Source: Tetradesmus obliquus
Lineage: Eukaryota; Chlorophyta; Chlorophyceae; Sphaeropleales; Scenedesmaceae
Assembly (NCBI GenBank): GCA_030272155.1
Contig: CP126198.1
Location: 5,740,501-5,804,500, forward strand
Length of the DNA stretch: 64,000 bases
Reading direction: 5' to 3'
Positions within the stretch are counted from its first letter, which is position 1. Every line of letters starts with the position of its first letter. This document shows, piece by piece, positions 22,699 to 40,247 of the stretch. The position numbers were made by a program, and so were the translations under genes. The notes under the pieces were generated by a model. It ran no database searches. It was not told the DNA's origin and saw nothing but the letters and a program-made list of their open reading frames with translations.

Positions 22699-25600
22699 TT
22701 ACCAGCGAGAGCCGGCAGTGCTGCGTGCGCTCTGGCGCTGGCTGGCTGCTGCTGCCACTGCGCTGCGCATCTGCTCCACGCTGCCGCTTGGGGACTGGCC
22801 GATGTTGGTCAGGATCTCCACCAGCTGGCCGCGGCTGAGGTCGTTCAGGGTCAGGCTGCGGGTCAGCTCGCGCACCAGGCTGTCCTTGGTGGCGTTGCGC
22901 ACGGAGATGCCCTTCTTGCGGGCCATGTCAGCCAGCACGTCGACCTTGAAGGCGCTCAGGTCGGCCTCGTACACGGCACCGCTGCCGCCTGAGGCACCAG
23001 CGCTGCTGCCGCTGCTGCCGCCGCTGCTGCGGGAGTAGCTGGCCCAGCGGTCACCGCTGCTGCTGGAGCTGGAGCTGGACTCAGCGGGTGCTGAGCGCCA
23101 GTTGCTGGTGCTGGCGGCGGGAGCAGCGGAGTAGCTGCCCTTGCCAACAGCTGAAGCCAGGTTCTTGCGCAGGCCATCCACATCACGGGCCATGGGGGCA
23201 CCCAGCTTGTTGGCCAGGTCGACCAGCATGCCTGCAGGACATGGAGAGCAGTTGCAAGTTAGCGAGCGCAGCACAGGACAACAAAGTGACGTGCAGGCAA
23301 GCTTTCCTGCAAGCATGTTTCATTTCCTGCAAGCAGAGAGACTTCCCCTGCAAGCAGAAACTGCTTCCTGCAAGCAGCCGGTGCTCTCCTGCAGCTAACA
23401 TTACTTCAAGCAGGTGCATCCCAGCCACTCACCGCGAGTGCACTCGTTGAGGGACACGCCCTTGGACACCAGGGCGCTGATCACACCATCCTTGGTGGCC
23501 TCGCGGGGCACCTGTGCGCCGGTCTTCTTTGCCAGCTCAGCCAGGTCGTCGATGCGCAGGATGCTGAGGTCAGATGCGCTCAGCTTGCTGCCGCTGGCGT
23601 TGTGGCTGCCGCTGCGCCTCCAGGAGGCGGCCTTAGTGGAGCCGGCAGAGTACTTGGACCAGCGGTCACCGCCGGCAGGGGCAGCAGCAGGTGCAGAGGA
23701 GGCAGCAGGTGCAGGGCTGGAGCGCCAGCTGGCGGCGCTGCCGCCGCTGCTGCCGCCCACCACGCTGGCCAGGTTCCTGCGCAGGCCCTCGGCATCCTTG
23801 GCCAGGGAGGCGCCCAGCTTGGTGGCCAGGTCAACCAGCATGCCTGCAGGCAGAGGGAAAGCCAGACCAGCATGCATAAGTTTAGCAACAATTCAAGTAA
23901 ATGAATGAAACTGGGGCATGAGAACTATGCAAGCTTCACAACAGCTCCTGCAGAGCTGCATGCAACTTCTTCGGGATCTGTAAACTGCTGCAAGCTAATC
24001 CCCAGTTCCTGCAACCAATCACCTATTCCTGCAAGCGAACCTAAAATTCCTGCAACCTGTTCACCAGATCCTGCAAGACGTTTATGATTTCCTGCCAGCT
24101 GTTCTTCATCCTGCAAGCTGCAATTTCATCCTACAAGCAGAAAATGCAATCCTGCAAGCTGCAAAACAACACAATAGAGCCCTAGCAGCAGGCAGCACAC
24201 TTGAGCAGCACCACAGATCACACAACTCACCGCGGGTGCAGTCGTTCAGGGACACGCCCTTGGACACCAGGGCGCTGATCACGCCGTCCTTGGTGGCCTC
24301 GCGGGGCAGCTGAGCGCCAGTCTTGCTGACCAGATCGCGCAGGTCATCGATGCGCAGCACTGACAGGTCAGCCGCGCTCAGCTTGCCACCAGCAGAGCTG
24401 GCGCTGCCGCTGCCGGAGGCAGCAGGGGTGGAGCCGCGGCTGTAGCTGGCCCAGCGGTCGCCGCCGCTGCTGCTGCTGCTGCTGCTGCTGGGAGTGGAGC
24501 GCCAGCTGGCAGGGGGCTGCTGGCTGGCAGCGGGTGTGGAGGTGGGCGCGGGGCTTGCGCGCCAGCTGGCAGTGGCGGAGCCGGAGCCGCCCACCAGGCT
24601 TGCCAGCTCAGCGCGGGCCGCGTTGATGTCACGGCTCAGGCCAGCCTTGCCCAGCTTGGTGCCGAGGTCCACCAGCTGGCCGCGGGACAGGTCAGTGAGA
24701 GACACACCGGCCTTCACCAGGGCATCCACCAGACCATCACGGGTGGCGTTGCGGCCGCCAGACACGCCCTTCTTGGCGCCGATCTCCACCAGGTCGGCGA
24801 TCTTGAAGGCAGCCAGGTCGCCAGCGCTCAGCTTGGCGTCAGCGCTGCCGGAGGATGCACCGCCAGAGGAGCTGCCGCGAGAGCTGCTGCTGTAGCTGGA
24901 CCAGCGGTCGCCGCTGGCGGCAGCGGGTGCTGCTGCAGCTGGCGCTGGTGCGGAGTAAGAGGGGGTGGATGGGGCACTGGCAAAGCTGCTGCCGCCAGAC
25001 TTGAGCTCAGCCATCTGGCCCTTGGTCAGGTCGGCGGCAGTCACGCCGGCCTTCAGCAGGGCGCTGGTCAGGCTGTCGCGGGTGGCGTTGCGGCCGCCAG
25101 ACACGCCCTTCTTGGCGCCAATCTCCACCAGGTCGGCGATCTTAAACTTGGCCAGGTCGGAGGCGCTCAGCGCGCCAGCAGGCGCGGCTGCCGCGCGCTG
25201 TGCGGGCGCAGCAGCAGGCGCAGACTCGCGGGCCCAGCGGTCGCCGCTGCTGGCGGCGGGGGTGGGCGCGGGCGCATAGCGCTCAGGCGCGGGCGCTGCG
25301 GCGCGGGGCGCCCCGGCAACCTTAGCAGAGTCTGCGGTCTTCCAGCTGCCGCGCTGCGCGGGCATGTTTTCGCTCAGGTTGAGGTTCTTGGCTCCCTTGT
25401 ACTGCTCAGGCACGGATGAGCCGGTGGAGCCTGCCAGCTCAGCACCTGCCAGGTAGGCATCAGCCAGCTGCACGCGCTTCACGTTGTCCTGCTCTCCCAC
25501 CAGGGACTTGCCGTAGTGCATGAGCACGTCCAGGCTCATGGCGGGCTTCTCAAACTTCACCTTGCCCTCCTTGGAGTTGATCAGGCGCTTGTTGAGGTTC

Positions 25601-28600
25601 TCGTGGCCGATCTGCGCCACAAACTCGCGCACCTGCGGCGATAGGAATGAGGCAGCGCGGCAGCAGGGGGCGAGATGTCAGCACATGGTTTAACCACACT
25701 CAACAAGTATGTGACGTGAGCAGCAGAAGGACAGACCTGTTGGCAAGTCGCACATATAAATCAAGGTGGTTTAATACAGGCATAAAGCAGGCCACATGTG
25801 AAATGCAGCTGCTGACCTGCGTAGTACTGCACTGCTGCAACATGCTCGCCAGCAGCACCAACTCAATGCACAGCAGCCACAGCCTGCCGCCGCGCACCTT
25901 GTCGTCATACACGCTAACAGCATACAACAAAAAACACAAACTTGATGAATATCGGTCATTTTGACAGCCGCGCCGCACCTTGTCGTCGTACACGCGTGCG
26001 CGCAGTGCTCCGAAGAAGTCGATGGACTGCCCGGGGAAGGCATCCACCAGCTGCTCCACCTGGCCCCTGTTGAGGTTGTCCTCGGCAAAGATGCCCATGC
26101 ACACGCCCACGCGGTCCTCGCGGGTGGGGTTCCAGTAGTACTTCTCCATGCGGCCGTCACGGATGAGGGGCGCGTACAGGGTGGAGAAGTCGTTACCTGG
26201 GGGCAGGAGGGGAAACAGCAGCAGCAGGGTGGGTTTTTTGAGTTGGCCGGATGGGGTTAGATGGTGGCAGCAGTGCTTTTAATGGACAGCAGGCTGCTGC
26301 AGGGGCTGCATGGCAATCTTACTTCAGCTGGCAGCTGCAGCATGCTGCAAGGCTGCGCAATTGCTGTCGGCCGCCGCTGCTGGCGCTGTTGCACAGCAAG
26401 GTTGGCAGCTGCCCGATGCCAGCATTAGGGCTTCTTTGTCAGCAATGTATGATCATCCAATCAAAGCGCACCTGTGCAGACGATGGGCACGCGGGGAATC
26501 TCCTCGTTCTTGTACACGCCTGGCAGCTGCACGTTGGTGGGGTTGTCGGCGATGTTCATCAGCGTGGCGTTGACCATCTGGTTGTTGACCGTGTACTGGG
26601 TGGACAGGCCGAAGCGGCCTGCTCCCGCGTCCAGGTCGTTGATGAACAGGCAGCACATCTTGCCCTTCTTGATCATGTCAGACGCCTCCCTGAGCAGAGG
26701 CAGCGGCAGCACAGGATACAGTGCACAAGTACTTGTGAGTACTGCTGCACAACACCACATGCATATAGACGCTTTACATGTCCAGCATGCATAGCAGGTT
26801 TTCATGATGCACTGCAGCACAGGCACAGCCATCTGCCGTCATCACACAGCAGCAACAGCAGCAGCACCAACTCTGGTGCCAACAACTTACAACTGCGACT
26901 TGCAGCAGCAAATCACGAACAGCAGCGCAAGCCGCACCTGTAGCACTGGCGGAGGAGCTTGGCTGGCTCTGCTGCATGCTATCCATGCACGGTCACACAC
27001 ACATGCATCAGTTTGCCATCACCAGACCTCAGCGCAAGCCGCACCTGTAGCGCTGGCGGAGCAGCTTGGCTGGCTCTCCTGCGTTGCCAGACTCCAGCTC
27101 ACCAGCGGACATCACGATGGGGGTGATGCCCAGCTTCTTGAAGGCAAGCATGCACTGGAAGGTCTTACCCTGTGGGTTGAACAGAACCAAAGTTGCAGCC
27201 GACAGAGCAGTGGTGAGCCGGCGCGCCGTGAAGGACACAGCAGCTGCTTAGCTGCAAGTATGCTTGCGGCCAGCAGCAGCACACAGCCACCGGCGTACGC
27301 TGCCTGCTTGCAAGAAGCGGCACGAAATGCAGTGGCAGGGTGCCGCAAAGGAAGCACATGCACTAGCATCCTGGAAGTACTTGTGCACTGGCAGGCTAAG
27401 CACTGCAGCTGCAAGCTGCTGCCAGCACCACAGCACTCAGCAAGCAATGCATATTGAACCCCAAGCCGCTAGTACCCCAGGCCGCACCTGTCCCTTGCCT
27501 CCCCAGATACCCAGGATGAGGGGCACCTTGATCTTGGGCAGGTTCATGAAGTTCTTGGCGATGTGGATGGACAGCTTGTCCAGGAAGGAGGGGGAGATGT
27601 AGAAGCCTGCGGGAAGGACAGAGAGCAGCAGCAGCAGGGGCGACAGTCAGCACAGGCCAGCCTCCATTCACCACACGCCGTACGCAACAGGCGTAACCCA
27701 GAGTGCCAATGCCACGCCGCTTCAGCAGCACAGATGAGGCACGCAACAAGTCAGCAGGGAGCCACACAAGACATGCCCAGCACCCCCTGCCCAGCAGCCT
27801 TGCAAGTATCCCTGCTCACCGTCCTCTACGTTGTTGAAGGTGCGCTGCGCCTGGCTGATGTAGTCGGAGCTGGCCATGATGGCGTTTTGGGTGCCGCCGG
27901 TGCCGCCCCAGCCCTGGAACAGCTCGTCAACCATGCCGCGGCCGCGGGCAATATCTTGCTGCAGGGGTGGATTGGAAATAGATGAAAGCATAGATAAAAG
28001 CAAAGACATGAGGTCAGGCGAGAAGCATGAGAGAAGGCATGTGGCTGGCAGCGGTGTCATGTGGGAGCCAGATTACTGCACGTGTGTGTGGGCAAGCAGA
28101 AGCAGCTGCTGTTGCTGCATCTAGGCATGCTTGCAGGAAACTAAGCACTGTAGGATTGCTGCAACGAGCCCTTTAGCATGTTGCATGGCAGTGAAACCCT
28201 GCTGTGTGCTGCAGGAAAGCTGCAGGAAGCTAGGCAGAGCTTGTGCAGCGCCCATTGCTGTTTGCAACTGCAGTATATGCTTGCCTGGTCGTCACTGACA
28301 TCGTTGCCAGCATCCATGCCGGCCCAGCGACCCTTCTGGGCCTTGCTTGCGTGTGCGACATGAGACTGGCGGTGAGCAGCCTGCAGGAGCACGCAATACG
28401 CAGCAGCGTCGCATTCAGCTTCGCATAGAGACAGGCCGGCTACATGTGCAACTGCCTCGCTGCTGAATGATTCTGCTGCCTCGTTGATCCGGATAGGCAA
28501 CTGCGAAGTGGAGGAGGATGATTGTGCTAGCTGCCTGCATTGCCTAAGCTTCAAAGCTGAAAATTGAGCTTCCGGATTGGCGTCTCACCGTAGAGCGAGT

Positions 28601-28730
28601 GCTGGGGGACACTCCACTCTTGGCGGTGCTGCAGAAAGACAACTATACATTAGCTACGGCCCAATTGCGCAGGCTGGCTTGCCAATGCATGCTACAAAAA
28701 ATACCTGGCGTGCTTAAGTGTGAGCTGCAT
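22699..28730 (-). CDS. RCA: Rubisco activase fused to five SAP-like modules
   Basis: Model: 28730-28705, 28628-28589, 28380-28285, 27958-27820, 27606-27488, 27169-27045, 26689-26472, 26196-25979, 25632-24231, 23843-23433, 23231-22699; 3,327 nt, 1,108 aa. The transit peptide starts MQLTLKHAS, like Chlamydomonas MQVTMKSSA. The mature start ([20 protein letters not shown]) and AAA+ core are typical Rubisco activase: Walker A GGKGQGKT (about 136-143), Walker B LFINDLD (about 196-202), [20 protein letters not shown], and [16 protein letters not shown] with arginines at the sensor region. Activase uses ATP to strip inhibitory sugar phosphates from Rubisco in the stroma or pyrenoid. The core ends near residue 405, where green-algal activases usually stop. 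Here about 700 more residues follow: five modules of the kind in the neighbouring stand-alone genes, joined by SWR/NWR/GDRW linkers and ending GSRW. Intron 3 has a GC donor. Confidence 0.93.
23285..23397 (-). repeat. Intronic TTGCAGGA minisatellite, last intron of the activase gene
   Basis: Four to five units of about 22 bp around GCTTGCAGGA on the minus strand, between exons 10 and 11. The intron occupies the same module position as the last introns of the stand-alone copies. Confidence 0.75.
23940..24170 (-). repeat. Intronic TTGCAGGA minisatellite, intron 9 of the activase gene
   Basis: About ten degenerate units (TTGCAGGA, TTGTAGGA, TGGCAGGA) at 20-25 bp spacing on the minus strand, between exons 9 and 10. 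Confidence 0.75.
25893..25920 (-). repeat. Duplicate of the exon 8 donor edge in activase intron 8
   Basis: The end of exon 8 plus donor (encoding VYDDK, then GTGCG) at about 25975-25998 is repeated with few changes at 25893-25920 inside the downstream intron. Confidence 0.65.
26920..26980 (-). repeat. Duplicate of the exon 6 donor edge in activase intron 6
   Basis: The last ~45 nt of exon 6 plus its donor and some intron (about 27030-27086) recur at 26920-26977 with a few changes. The duplicate lies downstream of the real donor. Confidence 0.7.
28283..28284 (-). other. GC-AG 5' splice site of activase intron 3
   Basis: Exon 3 ends GACGACCAG followed by GCAAGC on the minus strand, and exon 4 resumes after CTGCAG with CAAGATATT. 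The join restores the conserved activase sequence [15 protein letters not shown], so the donor is GC. GCAAG with a preceding CAG is the classical strong context for GC-AG introns. Confidence 0.8.
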
Positions 28731-31492: not shown

Positions 31493-34400
31493 ATGGTGTA
31501 CTGGCTGGTGTCGCTGCCCCTGCTGAAGGGCAGGCGGGACCACACCTGGGAGCTGCTGCAGGAAAAGACCAGCTACGGCCAGCAGCTCTCCAGCAACGCA
31601 AAGCTGGAGGTTCCAGAGCTGCGCGTGGGCACCATAGACACGCTGCTGGCACACAGCGATGACCTGGCCAAGATGACCATCGGCACTGAGGCCATCGTGT
31701 CCAAGATTAGGCGCACCATCACAGACATAGCTGGCCCGGGGGCTGTTGCAAGCCTCAAGGTGGAGAATTTGCCTGTGGAGTCATACCTCACTCGCTTCAG
31801 GTGGGCCAAGGCGTGGAGCAGCAGCAGCAGAAGCAGCAGCGGTATCCCTGCATGGTGGTTGCGTTCATGTGTATGCTTGTGGCGGTAGAATTGCAGCATC
31901 GGCACCATCACTGGCACAGAGCAGCAGTGGGCCAAGCACAGGAGCTGCAGAGGAGCTGCTGTGCGCTGCCGTTGTAGTGGTAGGGCCTCACGCAGCAGCA
32001 GCTGTGCCTGGCAGGCAACGGTGCTGTAGAGCTTGTCAGCACAGCTTGTGCTACAGATGCCCCAGCAGGCGCGGTGTGCAGCACCCTGCTTGCAGTACCG
32101 CAGCTTGCAGGATTAGGCTAGGCATAAGCAGCAACACAGCAACAGCGCACAGCACCGCATGCCAGACCTCAGCAGGGCAGCCAGAGCCACGCGCCTGGCG
32201 GGCCCAGGTGGTGCTCTGCGCTACAGGCAGCAGCGGCAGCAGCAGCATGCGCGTGCGTGCGTGTGTGTGCCAGCAGAGGTCATGCGGCATTGCCAGCGTC
32301 CTCACAGGCCGTTGCCAGCACTGCCAGCACTGCCAGCACAGCAGCAGCACACTGGCAGGCGGTGCTCAGCTGGCAGCGTTCGCCAGGTCATTGTGTGCAC
32401 CTTGCAGCTCTCTCTGTGCATGCACTGTGTGCTGTGCTGAGCCACCTGGACCGCTATGCCCACTGTGCACCATGCGACTCTGTGCCGTCCTTCCACCTGC
32501 CGCCTGCCTCCCACACACCTGTGCTGAGTCGCATGCCCTCTGTGCTGTGCACCCTGTGCTGTGCACGCCACGCCACGCCTGCAACTCTGTATATGTCAAC
32601 AGCATACACTCCACGTGCCTGCCTGCCTGCCTGCCTGCCTGCCTGCTTCACTCCTTGCCACCAGGTGGGACGAGCCCAAGTTCCCGCTGCGGCGCCCTGT
32701 GAAGGAGACGCTGGAGAAGATCACGGAGATCATGGGACACCTGGAGGACGACCTCAAGGTGGGCCGATGCGCAAGCATATCAGCAGGCTGCGCAGCTGGC
32801 CGGCTGGAGGCACACTAAAGACGCACTGCATGTTGCATAATGTACATGGGGGGTTCGGGGCAAGCATATCAGCAGGCACATGAAGCACGGCAGCGGTCAG
32901 CTGCACGCAGCACCCGGCCGCGGTGAAGTGTTCCCAGCACTCGCCTCCTGCAGGCTTTGTGAGAGGCAGAGGCAGCAGGGGACTTGCAGGCAGCAGGGGA
33001 CTTGCAGGCAGCAGGGGAATTGCAGGACCAGCCATGCTTGTGTCGCCTGCGCTGCCCATATCTTTGCCTGCCTGCTGCTGCCGCCTCACTGTGGGCCATG
33101 CTGCCGTGCTGGCTGCTTTGCTGCCGTGCTGCTGCTGCCTGCAGGTCAAGGTGGCGGAGTACAACACTGTGAAGGGCCAGATCAGCGCCGCGCTGCGCAA
33201 GGCGGGCGGCAGCCTGGCGGTGCGCGACATCAGCGGCGTGGTGACGCCGGGCAGCGTGGTGGACAGCGAGAACCTGGCCACGCTGTTTGTGGTGGTGTCC
33301 AAGTACAGCGTGAAGGAGTGGGAGGCCTGCTACGAGAAGCTGTGCGACTTCGTGGTGCGTGGGTGCAGCTGCTGTCTGTTATATTTTGAGTGGTGGGGGA
33401 GGGGGTGCTGTGTGTTACAGACGTGTGCGACTTCGTGGTGCGTGGCTGTAGCTGTCATCTTTGTGGTTGAGAGGGGCCTGCTTAGTGTTGCAATCTGGCG
33501 TGTGCGACGCCGTAGTGTGTTCTGGCTGAAAGGTCGTAGTGCGTTGCGGCTAAAAGTTTGGCAGGTGGCAGGGCAGAGGTACACTGTGGGCTGTGGGGGT
33601 AGCTGATGCTTTGCGCAGTGTAGCATTGCACGCGCAGGGGTGCGGTGCATGGGCTGCATGCAGCAGAATTTGCGGCGTGTTATGCTTGGCACAGTTGCAG
33701 CCCCTGGCCTGCTTAAAGTTGTGCTTGCGAGCAATTTGTGTGACCATGCTGGTTGTGCGCTGCCTGTGCCTCCTGTTCTCGAACTCGTGCAGGTGCCGCG
33801 CAGCAGCAAGCACGTGACGGAGGACCAGGACTACGTGCTGATGAGTGTGGTGCTGTTCAGGCGCGTGGTGGATGACTTCAAGACGGCGGCGCGCGTGCGC
33901 GGCTTCCAGGTAGGACGCGCTCGAGGCATGTTGTTACCGAGGGGAATGCCGGGGACGTCGCGCATGTGGGGGTTGTTTGTTGAATTCAGGGACTGGTGGG
34001 CGGGCAGGTGGCGGCGCGCAGCGGCATGAGGGTTGTTGAGTGGCATGCGGGGGAACTGAGTAGGACAGCGGGGAGTTGGTTGGCACAAGGCGGACTGAGC
34101 GGTACGGGGGGGGGGGGGGGGGGGGGGCGCTTGGTGCTGCATGGAAAGGGTGCTGCCGGCCTTGCAGGAATGGCTGGGCTTGGGTAGCAGCGCTGACATG
34201 TACTGGGTTTGCCATGGGCAGCATAAATCGGGTAGATAGGCACATTTGCAGGATGTGCTGGCACGGCCGGCTGCTATGCAGCTGCGCCTGGCTGTATATC
34301 GTGTTATTAGTGACCAGCGTTTCACACAACCACATGCGTCTGCTGCTGCTGCTGCTGTTGGCTGCTGCCGGGCAGGTCAAAGAGTACGTGCCTCCTGCCC

Positions 34401-37217: not shown

Positions 37218-40200
37218 ATGGCACTCCAGATGCAGAGGAAGGCAGCCCTTTCCACCAGGTCAGCTGCCTGCTTGAATTGGCTATTGGCGAACTTCTCACA
37301 TGCACAGCAGCATCGCAGCACAGTGTAGCAGAGCCTGACTCCACGATCCTATGTTGCCTGCAGGTCCGCAGCCCCCACTCGCGGCCTGGTCGTGGCTCGC
37401 TACTCACAGGTGAGCAGCGCTTCGCTCCAATCCTGCCTAGCTGTCTAGCCGCGCACGCTGCAGCGGGAGCGCACGCAGCAAGCATCCGGCAGCCCGCACT
37501 GCACGCACAGCAGCAGATTAGCTCCTATGCACACGCATTGGCAGTCTTCATGTGTAGTGGCCGTGCTTAGCAGTTGTGCCAACCGCCTGAACAGCTTGCT
37601 GAGCAGGCATGTCCCACTGTTGTATCATGATCTTGTTGATACTAGTCACAGTGCTGCTACACAGCTTGCTTGCTTCATACAACAGAACATGTAGTGGCAT
37701 TATGCAGCAGTCTGCTGCCCAATCGGCTTCAAGTCACATCAAGTCTCATCCAAGTGCAGCTGTGCTGTGACATGCTGTGCAGCTGTGCATGTCACAACAT
37801 GTGACAACAATCATGGAGCAGCTGTTCACATACAGTACTATGTGCTGTGTCTGACATGCCGCTGCTGCTGTTTCCTGCTGCTGCCGCAGACCCTGAGCGC
37901 CAGCGACCTGGCTGCCTTCAAGATTGCCGACCTGGTGGAGATTGGTGCCAAGAAGGGCGTCAACGGCGGCCGGAACGCCACCCGTGACAGCCTGACCAGC
38001 GCCATCCTGAGGGCCGGCGTGACTGCTGCCGACCTGACGAAGGGCCAGACCGCTGAGCTCAAGGCCAGGGGCGGCTCCTCCGGCAGCGCTGCCAGCGCGC
38101 CTGCTGCTGGCGGCCGCTTCTCCAGCTACGGCAGCAGCAGCGGCAGCAGCACCCCCAGCTACAGCCGCTCCGCTGGTGCCTCCAGCGGCGGCGCCACCCT
38201 CAGCGCTGGCGACCTGTCTGCCTTCAAGATCGCCGACCTGGTGGAGATCGCCGCCAAGAAGGGCGTCAACGGCGGTCGCAACGCCACGCGCGACAGCCTG
38301 GTCAGCGCCATGGTGCAGGCTGGCGTGTCCCTGAGCGACCTGTCCCGCGGCCAGCTGGTGGACCTCGGCATCAAGCTGGGCAAGGCCGGCCTCAGCCGCG
38401 ACATCAACGCCGCCCGCGCTGAGCTGTCCGCCCTCATCGGCGGCTCCGGCTCATCGCCCGCCAGCTGGCGCTCAACCCCCGCGCCCGCTGCTGCATCTGG
38501 CGACCGCTTTGCCAACTACAGCCGCAGCTCCGGCTCCGCCCCCGCTGCCCGCGCCGGCGCTGCTGGCAGCTCTGGCGCCAAGCTGAGCGCGGCTGACCTG
38601 TCCGTGCTGCGCATCGATGACCTGCGCGATCTGGTGGCCAAGACCGGCGCTCAGCTGCCCCGCGAGCCCACCAAGGACGGCGTGATCAGCGCACTGCTGG
38701 CCAAGGGCGTGTCCCTGAACGAGTGCACTCGCGGTGAGTGGTGTGGGCTGGCGTGTGACTCTGCCTGCTGCTGCTGTGCAAATGTGTAGTTCTGCAGGAG
38801 TTTGCCGGAATGTGTGTGCTACCTGCAGGATGTGCATTGCAGCATGCAGGAAGTGTGCTCAGCTTGCAGGAAGTGCACTGTAGCTGCGCCGCGTGCTTTA
38901 CAGCTTGCAGGATATGGTGATCAGCTTGCAGGAACTGTTGTGGAGCTTGCAGGAAGTGGTGTACAGCTTGCAGGAAGCATTACTGCAACCCCCTTGAGGC
39001 CGCACCGTTGCTGACTTGCGTACGCTGCGCTGTCTTGCCTCTGCCTGCAGGCATGCTGGTTGACCTGGCCACCAAGCTGGGCGCCTCCCTGGCCAAGGAT
39101 GCCGAGGGCCTGCGCAGGAACCTGTCCAGCGTGGTCGGCGGCGGCAGCGGCGGCAGCGCCGCCAGCTGGCGCTCCACCCCCGCAGCCTCCTCTGCTGCTG
39201 CCCCTGCTGGCGGTGACCGCTGGTCCAAGTACTCTGCCGGCTCCACCAAGGCCGCCTCCTGGAGGCGCAGCGGCAGCCACAACGCCAGCGGCAGCAAGCT
39301 GAGCGCATCCGACCTGACCCACCTGCGCATTGACGACCTGGCCGAGCTGGTGAAGAAGACCGGCGCACAGGTGCCCCGCGAGGCCACCAAGGACAGCGTG
39401 ATCAGCGCACTCATCCAGAAGGGCGTGTCCCTCAACGAGCTCACCCGCGGTGAGTGAGCCACCAGGCCGGCCTGGGCAGGCTTGTGTGTGATCTGCTTGC
39501 AGGATGTAGCACATGCTTGCAGGAAGCAGTACATGCTTGCAGAATGCACTACTTGCTTGCAGGAAAATAGTGCGTGCTTGCAGGAAGTAGTGCTTGCTTG
39601 CAGGAAACAGTGTCTTGCCTGAAGGGTGTACTGTCTTGCCTGCAGGAACTAGTGCATGCTTGCAGGAAGTATCTCCTGCTATGCTGTACAACATTTTTAA
39701 CGTCTTGTGCTGTTCTTGCTGCCCCGCAGGCATGCTGGTCGACCTGGCCAACAAGCTGGGCCAGCCCCTGGCGCGTGACGTGGACAGCCTGCGCAAGAAC
39801 CTGTCCTCTGCTGTGGGCAAGGGCGGCTACTCCCCTGCTGCCCCCGCCAGCTCCGGCAGCAACTGGCGCACATCCAGCCCCGCACCTGCTGCCACCAGCA
39901 GCGGCGACCGCTGGGCCAGCTACTCCCGCAGCAACGGCAACGGTGCCAGCGCTGGCAGCAGCAGCGGTGCCGTGTACGAGGCCGACCTGAGCGCCTTTAA
40001 GGTTGACGTGCTGGCTGACATGGCCCGCAAGAAGGGCATCTCCGTGCGCAACGCCACCAAGGACAGCCTGGTGCGCGAGCTGACCCGCAGCCTGACCCTG
40101 AGCGACCTCAGCCGCGGCCAGCTGGTGGAGATCCTGCACAACATCGGCCAGTCCCCAAGCGGCAGCGTGGAGCAGATGCGCAGCGCAGTGGCAGCAGCAG

Positions 40201-40247
40201 CCAGCCAGCGCCAGAGCGCACGCGCCACCGCAGGCAGCCGCTGGTAA
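37218..40247 (+). CDS. Plastid-targeted protein of five tandem SAP-like modules (copy B)
   Basis: Model: 37218-37258, 37364-37409, 37890-38733, 39051-39449, 39730-40247; 1,848 nt, 615 aa. Exons 1-4 have exactly the lengths of copy A; exon 5 is 6 nt shorter. The transit peptide (MALQMQRKAALSTRSAAPTR) differs from copy A at two residues. The five modules and linkers are almost identical; most differences are single substitutions such as SLSDLS/SLNDLS-type changes and Gly/Ser swaps in linkers. Even synonymous positions are nearly unchanged in the parts I compared, while introns 1-2 have clearly diverged. The gene lies inverted relative to copy A, about 17 kb away, with the activase fusion and V-ATPase genes between. 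It shares the proposed Rubisco-scaffold role (inference). Confidence 0.85.
38815..38985 (+). repeat. Intronic TTGCAGGA minisatellite, intron 3 of copy B
   Basis: About eight units with the core AGCTTGCAGGAA at 20-25 bp spacing, orthologous to the array at 18786-18975. Confidence 0.8.
39487..39680 (+). repeat. Intronic TTGCAGGA minisatellite, last intron of copy B
   Basis: About nine units such as TGCTTGCAGGAAGTAGTG. Compared with copy A, the flanks match almost base for base but there are about three additional units, direct evidence that the array changes copy number. Confidence 0.85.

Follow-up and report, generated by a model that had tools for sequence, protein, structure and literature searches.

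A stretch of 64,000 nucleotides from the common freshwater alga Tetradesmus obliquus (positions 5,740,501 to 5,804,500 of contig CP126198.1, assembly GCA_030272155.1; hereafter the window) contains a gene in which Rubisco activase, the protein that repairs the CO2-fixing enzyme Rubisco, is fused to a long tail of repeated modules. In a rebuilt splice model the gene has eleven exons on the minus strand (28730-28705, 28628-28589, 28380-28285, 27958-27820, 27606-27488, 27169-27045, 26689-26472, 26196-25979, 25632-24231, 23843-23433 and 23231-22699), which join in one frame from an ATG at 28730 to a TAA at 22699 and encode 1,108 amino acids. All ten acceptors are AG and nine of the ten donors are GT, the remaining one (after exon 3) being GC. 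The initial annotation of this DNA had proposed eleven exons joining in one frame, and this is borne out by the splice model and by OEZ85_014455 (1,107 residues), a T. obliquus protein from a separate deposition that is identical in 1,098 of 1,108 aligned columns. The complete AAA+ core that it described is also present. Core and helical domain occupy about residues 51-404 (25402..28299, minus strand, introns inside), where the Pfam families AAA (PF00004, E 2.5e-15) and RuBisCO_activase_AAA_helical (PF21228, E 3.1e-38) both match above cut-off and the solved activase 4w5w aligns over 350 residues, Walker A and Walker B included. The tail comprises residues 404-1108 (705 residues) and is basic, with an isoelectric point (pI) of 10.1. 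The joint between the two parts lies inside exon 9, a single open frame (25632-24231) that leads out of the C-terminal domain of activase and on into module 3 of the tail. Therefore, the fusion is not the product of a splicing choice. As an architecture, the tailed activase gene is confirmed as real.

Two further genes in the window, located by tblastn, encode the same module array without an activase part. Copy A (617 residues; minus strand, 20563-20523, 20430-20385, 19876-19033, 18714-18316 and 18098-17575) agrees in 616 of 617 residues with the deposited protein OEZ85_014454 (P0002). Copy B (615 residues; plus strand, 37218-37258, 37364-37409, 37890-38733, 39051-39449 and 39730-40247) forms an inverted repeat with it. 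Each has five exons and a short, basic, Ser/Ala-rich N-terminus of its own, which may be a transit peptide. Their introns 3 and 4 interrupt the modules at the same places as do introns 9 and 10 in the fused gene. The inverted pair is about 17 kb apart, with arms (I1-I4) that are 94-99% complementary, and the high likeness reaches into the introns. Synonymous divergence between the copies is 0.073 and the ratio of nonsynonymous to synonymous divergence (Ka/Ks) is 0.08. Together, the likeness and the low synonymous divergence indicate recent duplication or conversion. A search of the 104.7-Mb genome for the array returned ten matches, a lower bound as are all genome-wide counts here, and all lie within the window, no further copy being found. 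The interval from the fused gene to copy B contains an exon of V-ATPase subunit C (32884-33603, plus strand, E 1.3e-20).

A profile hidden Markov model of the module finds five copies in the tailed activase, all on the minus strand: module 1 at residues 482-550 (24964..25170), module 2 at 595-676 (24586..24831), module 3 at 745-825 (23752..24381, split by intron 9), module 4 at 882-962 (23140..23583, split by intron 10) and module 5 at 1019-1096 (22738..22971). The gaps between them measure 44, 68, 56 and 56 residues. The five modules of about 80 residues that had been described are thus present as a count and as the length of a full module, but module 1 is shorter. Structure prediction of a single module, suggested as a check by the initial annotation, gave five helices for module 2 (AlphaFold2, mean predicted local distance difference test (pLDDT) score 83.8), which may be read as two helical hairpins. 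The AlphaFold2 model of the standalone protein P0002 has five well-predicted modules and four linkers below pLDDT 50 (210 of 617 residues are below that value), and a predicted template modelling score of 0.25 leaves the overall shape unfixed.

The label SAP-like is a fair one insofar as Rho_N and SAP profiles do match, but wherever scores are listed they fall below the curated cut-offs. In the tailed activase Rho_N reaches 15.1 bits, against a Pfam gathering score of 24.9; in module 1 it matches residues 486-522 with E 0.022. Among 22 relatives Rho_N matches 17 (best E 7.4e-5) and SAP three. In the eight relatives scanned in full the best scores were 23.1 for Rho_N (cut-off 24.9) and 19.3 for SAP (cut-off 23.9). 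The predicted helices would fit a helix-extended-helix fold. The first hairpin resembles the N-terminal domain of Rho over 39-44 residues (41-44 residues for 1a8v and 1pv4, with one superposition of 41 residues at 1.3 A) at 1.3-2.4 A, with Foldseek E values of 3.0-4.2 that are statistically not significant. Among the matches listed by fold searches with module 2 and with a whole standalone relative, none had E below 0.001, and a sequence search for a solved relative of the modules gave a single match, to a glucanase at E 0.32. Several other labels were set aside as chance or shared-fold matches. These are EAD2 (module 5 alone, E 0.0084, under cut-off), EAD7, Thymopoietin, Pentapeptide and AvrPtoB_bdg (one Pfam match each in relatives), DUF7440 (in P0018 and P0019 the last third of its profile matches at 0.1-0.2 bits above cut-off) and the database labels of P0016-P0019 as EAD7 (PF19960) or DUF7440 (PF24224). 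NCBIfam, run on four proteins, gave one weak match far under its cut-off.

The linkers between the modules are of a different kind. They are predicted to be disordered, are rich in arginine and carry repeated GDR(W/F)..Y and (S/N)W(R/K) motifs. The 314 linker residues hold all 12 tryptophans (Trp) of the tail, and the 391 module residues hold none. Across the five proteins measured, modules have a pI of 9.4-9.7 and linkers one of 11.2-11.8. The most conserved stretch is in the module 3-4 linker (residues 854-873, 23608..23667, minus strand), where S-A-G followed by W-R-R-S-G (W869 to G873) is invariant in 22 of 22 aligned relatives, as is, upstream, an R before W or F. Here 19 of 49 columns are conserved at 90% or more among the 22 relatives, and the other two linkers measured have 9 of 44 and 8 of 52. 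A search for a solved relative of the linker gave one match (E 3.5). Among this genome's proteins a search with the linker found, besides the three array genes, two matches at E 0.23 and 3.4.

Is the fusion peculiar to this gene? A search for the tail in other activases, which had been proposed as a check, recovered both fused and standalone tails in relatives. A protein search with the tail, in which scoring was confined to the 7,982 candidates with the most words in common, returned seven proteins: OEZ85_014455, the standalone OEZ85_014454 and the fused activases or fragments P0003-P0007. In P0004, P0006 and P0007 one reading frame contains both the C-terminal domain of activase and the complete array. 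P0005 is a complete fused open reading frame (ORF) of 1,023 residues whose contigs do not exceed 3,386 nt, and it matches P0004 in 652 of 692 aligned columns. The start of P0004 looks like intron read-through before the VRKFV exon. That a complete ORF fits on a contig no longer than 3.4 kb, set beside this apparent read-through, makes P0005 most simply, and probably, a spliced transcript. A second search, from a standalone relative, listed 30 proteins (7,998 candidates scored). Among these are fused ORFs that resemble exon 9 (P0023-P0027), as well as eleven proteins with the array alone (P0008-P0010, P0012-P0014 and P0016-P0020). The latter are 512-588 residues long, come from contigs of 1.7-3.1 kb and are probably transcripts too. 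The two possibilities that the initial annotation had left standing, an assembly error and transcripts ending within exon 9, are made unlikely by these fused relatives, that is, by relatives' ORFs as distinct from transcripts of this strain.

A tree of the tails, built from the modules of six fused and 17 standalone proteins (23 rows; the near-copies P0001 and P0002 and the partial P0015, P0022-P0028 and P0031 were left out), has four groups (support 99/95, 93/89, 84/82 and 100/99). Each holds fused and free tails, so that the tree does not separate them by architecture. A simple single split into fused and free tails fails, since there is no one fused clade and four changes are needed. This mixture is read here as a sign of gene conversion, although separate fusions are a possible alternative. 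One clue is that synonymous divergence between the fused gene and copy A is patchy (0.29, 0.34, 0.09, 0.47 and 0.04 for modules 1 to 5), which suggests conversion between neighbours. Another group may be arranged in the same way. The longest contig is equal for P0006 and P0030 (10,886) and for P0007 and P0029 (62,385), which suggests that fused and free genes adjoin there too.

The activase part has a history of its own. An ordinary tailless activase (C-terminus ...MPEAYAAQ) is kept on another contig of the same genome (C16), which gives the tailed one the appearance of a specialised paralog. In a tree of the cores (12 rows, strong support on three of nine inner branches), the three tailed proteins group together (96/92). 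The tailless T. obliquus protein pairs with one from Scenedesmus PABB004 (92/94), and this pair is sister to the tailed group (joint support 82/88). The grouping points to duplication of an activase and a single gain of the tail. Two divergent activase-like loci (L018 and L019, 40-84% identity by exon) lie on contig C11 of the same genome.

What might the tail do? The initial annotation had offered two ideas, tethering to a Rubisco condensate and tethering to plastid nucleic acid. The first is now the better one, because the conserved part of the linkers consists of Trp/Arg motifs and because the array also occurs alone, beside the activase gene. On balance, and by a slight preference, we think that the tail is a multivalent element that retains activase in a Rubisco condensate, the pyrenoid, and that the free arrays are scaffold candidates. 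The architecture, the paralogs, the motif conservation and the predicted disorder are the observations on which this draws; Rubisco binding, localisation in a condensate and a division of labour are what it would add. In this scheme an activase paralog would have gained a multivalent scaffold tail, and its AAA+ part would repair Rubisco as usual, judging by homology. By sequence and predicted structure, the tail alternates folded helical modules with disordered, arginine-rich linkers that carry Trp-Arg and Arg-Trp short linear motifs. The Trp motifs could be weak stickers for Rubisco, for each other, or for both. An activase subunit ring would then carry dozens of stickers and so stay within the condensate. 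The two standalone proteins could be a scaffold or linker of the condensate, or activase-free partners. Gene conversion, by maintaining their likeness, would ensure that the tails remain compatible, and Rubisco outside the condensate would be left to the ordinary tailless activase. A bolder version, which we put forward only tentatively and consider rather doubtful, is that the standalone arrays are the Rubisco linker of Sphaeropleales pyrenoids. They would embody a new principle, folded tandem hairpin modules with Trp-Arg stickers, and activase would be built covalently into the scaffold as a part of the network, not a client.

Several observations weigh against retention in a condensate. The nearest recognisable families of the modules, Rho_N and SAP, suggest a resemblance to nucleic-acid-binding folds. 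Pyrenoid linkers of the EPYC1, CsLinker and PYCO1 class are largely disordered proteins, and 382 of the 617 residues of P0002 are at pLDDT 70 or more; likewise, 391 of the tail's 705 residues (55%) belong to modules, so that the tail is not a typical disordered linker. The Rubisco-binding motif of Chlamydomonas (Volvocales) has the consensus [D/N]W[R/K]xx[L/I/V/A], and this fits none of the 12 Trp sites in the 705 residues, even when its first position is dropped. Passages of one report place that motif in Volvocales only (PMC10473226). The motifs of the tail are far more frequent than expected (DR[WF] five times against 0.02 and [SN]W[RK] six times against 0.34, each reached in none of 5,000 shuffles), but the shuffle test is inflated by the internal duplication of the linkers. 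For this reason the conservation of motifs among relatives is the stronger evidence. Even so, P0005 has no DR[WF]. Comparison of the fused gene with copy A gives a Ka/Ks of 0.62 for linkers and 0.29 for modules; the linkers are weakly constrained overall, so the motifs alone, not whole linkers, look selected. Finally, no direct report of a pyrenoid in T. obliquus was found in the literature excerpts searched, and one pyrenoid is described for Scenedesmus incrassatulus in excerpts of PMC10324582.

The best surviving alternative takes the module families at face value. Rho_N and SAP are nucleic-acid binders in other proteins. If the modules were true members, the tail might tie activase to chloroplast nucleoids or plastid RNA, which the standalone proteins would organise, with the basic linkers adding affinity. 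The profile matches, the hairpin superposed on the Rho RNA-binding domain and the basic pI of modules and linkers all fit. However, the scores stay below the cut-offs in the eight relatives scanned in full, none of the fold matches listed reaches E 0.001, and the net charge is just +9 to +13 over 322-396 module residues. Moreover, the invariant Trp motif and the link with activase would be left unexplained. We consider this alternative unlikely. Somewhat less likely again is that the tail is a self-association domain, whose modules and aromatic linkers would bind the tails of activase and of the standalone proteins to each other. Assembly or storage of activase would then be set in this way, without Rubisco being contacted directly. 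However, gene conversion between neighbours accounts for the likeness of the tails without any contact, and the likeness of the modules to the death fold is no better than noise (Foldseek E values of 2.2 and above). That an annotation or assembly artefact joined an activase gene to an adjacent array gene is conceivable, given that the fused gene and two array genes share a stretch of 23 kb, but very unlikely, because the joint sits in one exon, recurs in the separately deposited T. obliquus protein and is matched by single-ORF fusions, the complete P0005 and the exon-9-like ORFs.

No activase with such a tail was found among the open-licence PubMed Central papers that the searches listed. In the portions of the literature seen, the green-algal pyrenoid linkers described are those of Chlamydomonas and Chlorella, and their conservation extends only to close relatives. 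The locus is a concrete candidate for Rubisco condensation in Scenedesmaceae, with built-in comparisons between tailed and tailless activase in one genome and between free and fused tails. Should the tail indeed draw activase into Rubisco condensates, it would also be a useful module for engineering plant pyrenoids.

How does the protein compare with known systems? It shares the complete AAA+ core and helical domain of green-type activases but has about 700 additional C-terminal residues. Like cyanobacterial activases with a domain resembling the Rubisco small subunit, it is an activase fused to a further domain. Recruitment of activase to carboxysomes is reportedly the subject of a 2020 study by Flecken et al. 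However, the present tail is longer, repeated and eukaryotic, and PF00101 has no match in the 1,108-residue protein at E up to 1; in a search of long activases this family was found in 27 of 117 matches. The small subunit of T. obliquus Rubisco (one gene found, three exon matches) reads SDDQIARQVDYIV and DPVQV/LREIDNATKAFP across an intron. Compared with what we take to be the Chlamydomonas helices, acidic helix A is presumably kept and part of helix B changed.

Among the close parallels, by description, are the pyrenoid linkers EPYC1, CsLinker and PYCO1, which have repeats spaced to bridge Rubiscos and occur as standalone forms. The module gaps and eight of the eleven Trp-to-Trp intervals of the tail (20-114 residues; the other three are 13, 17 and 18) fall within the 20-120 residue spacing that has been used to look for linkers (passages of PMC11570498). 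PYCO1 is also alike in its Trp/Arg motifs: in excerpts of PMC10288592, the diatom motif is KWSPR and replacement of W476 abolished Rubisco binding. Similarly, parts of PMC13086578 attribute recruitment of KEY1 to WRVDI, and activase is listed as a pyrenoid matrix protein in Chlamydomonas (passages of PMC10473226). However, the T. obliquus tail has large folded modules between its motifs and exists in an activase-fused form, and its Rubisco binding is putative. It resembles Rho_N and SAP proteins in its sub-cut-off profile matches and may do so in its predicted hairpins, which could be of the helix-extended-helix kind, but each 80-residue module would have two hairpins, there are five modules, and none matches at a curated cut-off where scores are listed.

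Other activases have been extended as well. In Chlorella vulgaris, P0036 (1118 residues) has Ser/Pro/Arg-rich repeats directly N-terminal of the activase core, and its far N-terminus looks wrongly joined. A rhodanese domain (PF00581) occurs in 31 of the 117 long activase matches, including Cymbomonas (among P0087-P0140), and STR16 and STR18, two proteins of rhodanese type, are reported from the pyrenoid matrix of Chlamydomonas in portions of PMC10473226. Most similar in plan is the activase of Chlamydomonas eustigma (P0039, 616 residues), which has nine DFS.WL repeats after the core. Here too a long tail in which Trp motifs recur extends an activase, but that tail is acidic (pI 4.3), unrelated in sequence and, by eye, without modules, which suggests an independent invention and thus convergence. 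Taken with the small-subunit-like domain of cyanobacteria and the rhodanese fusions of other algae, the C. eustigma tail suggests that domain addition to activase is a recurrent theme.
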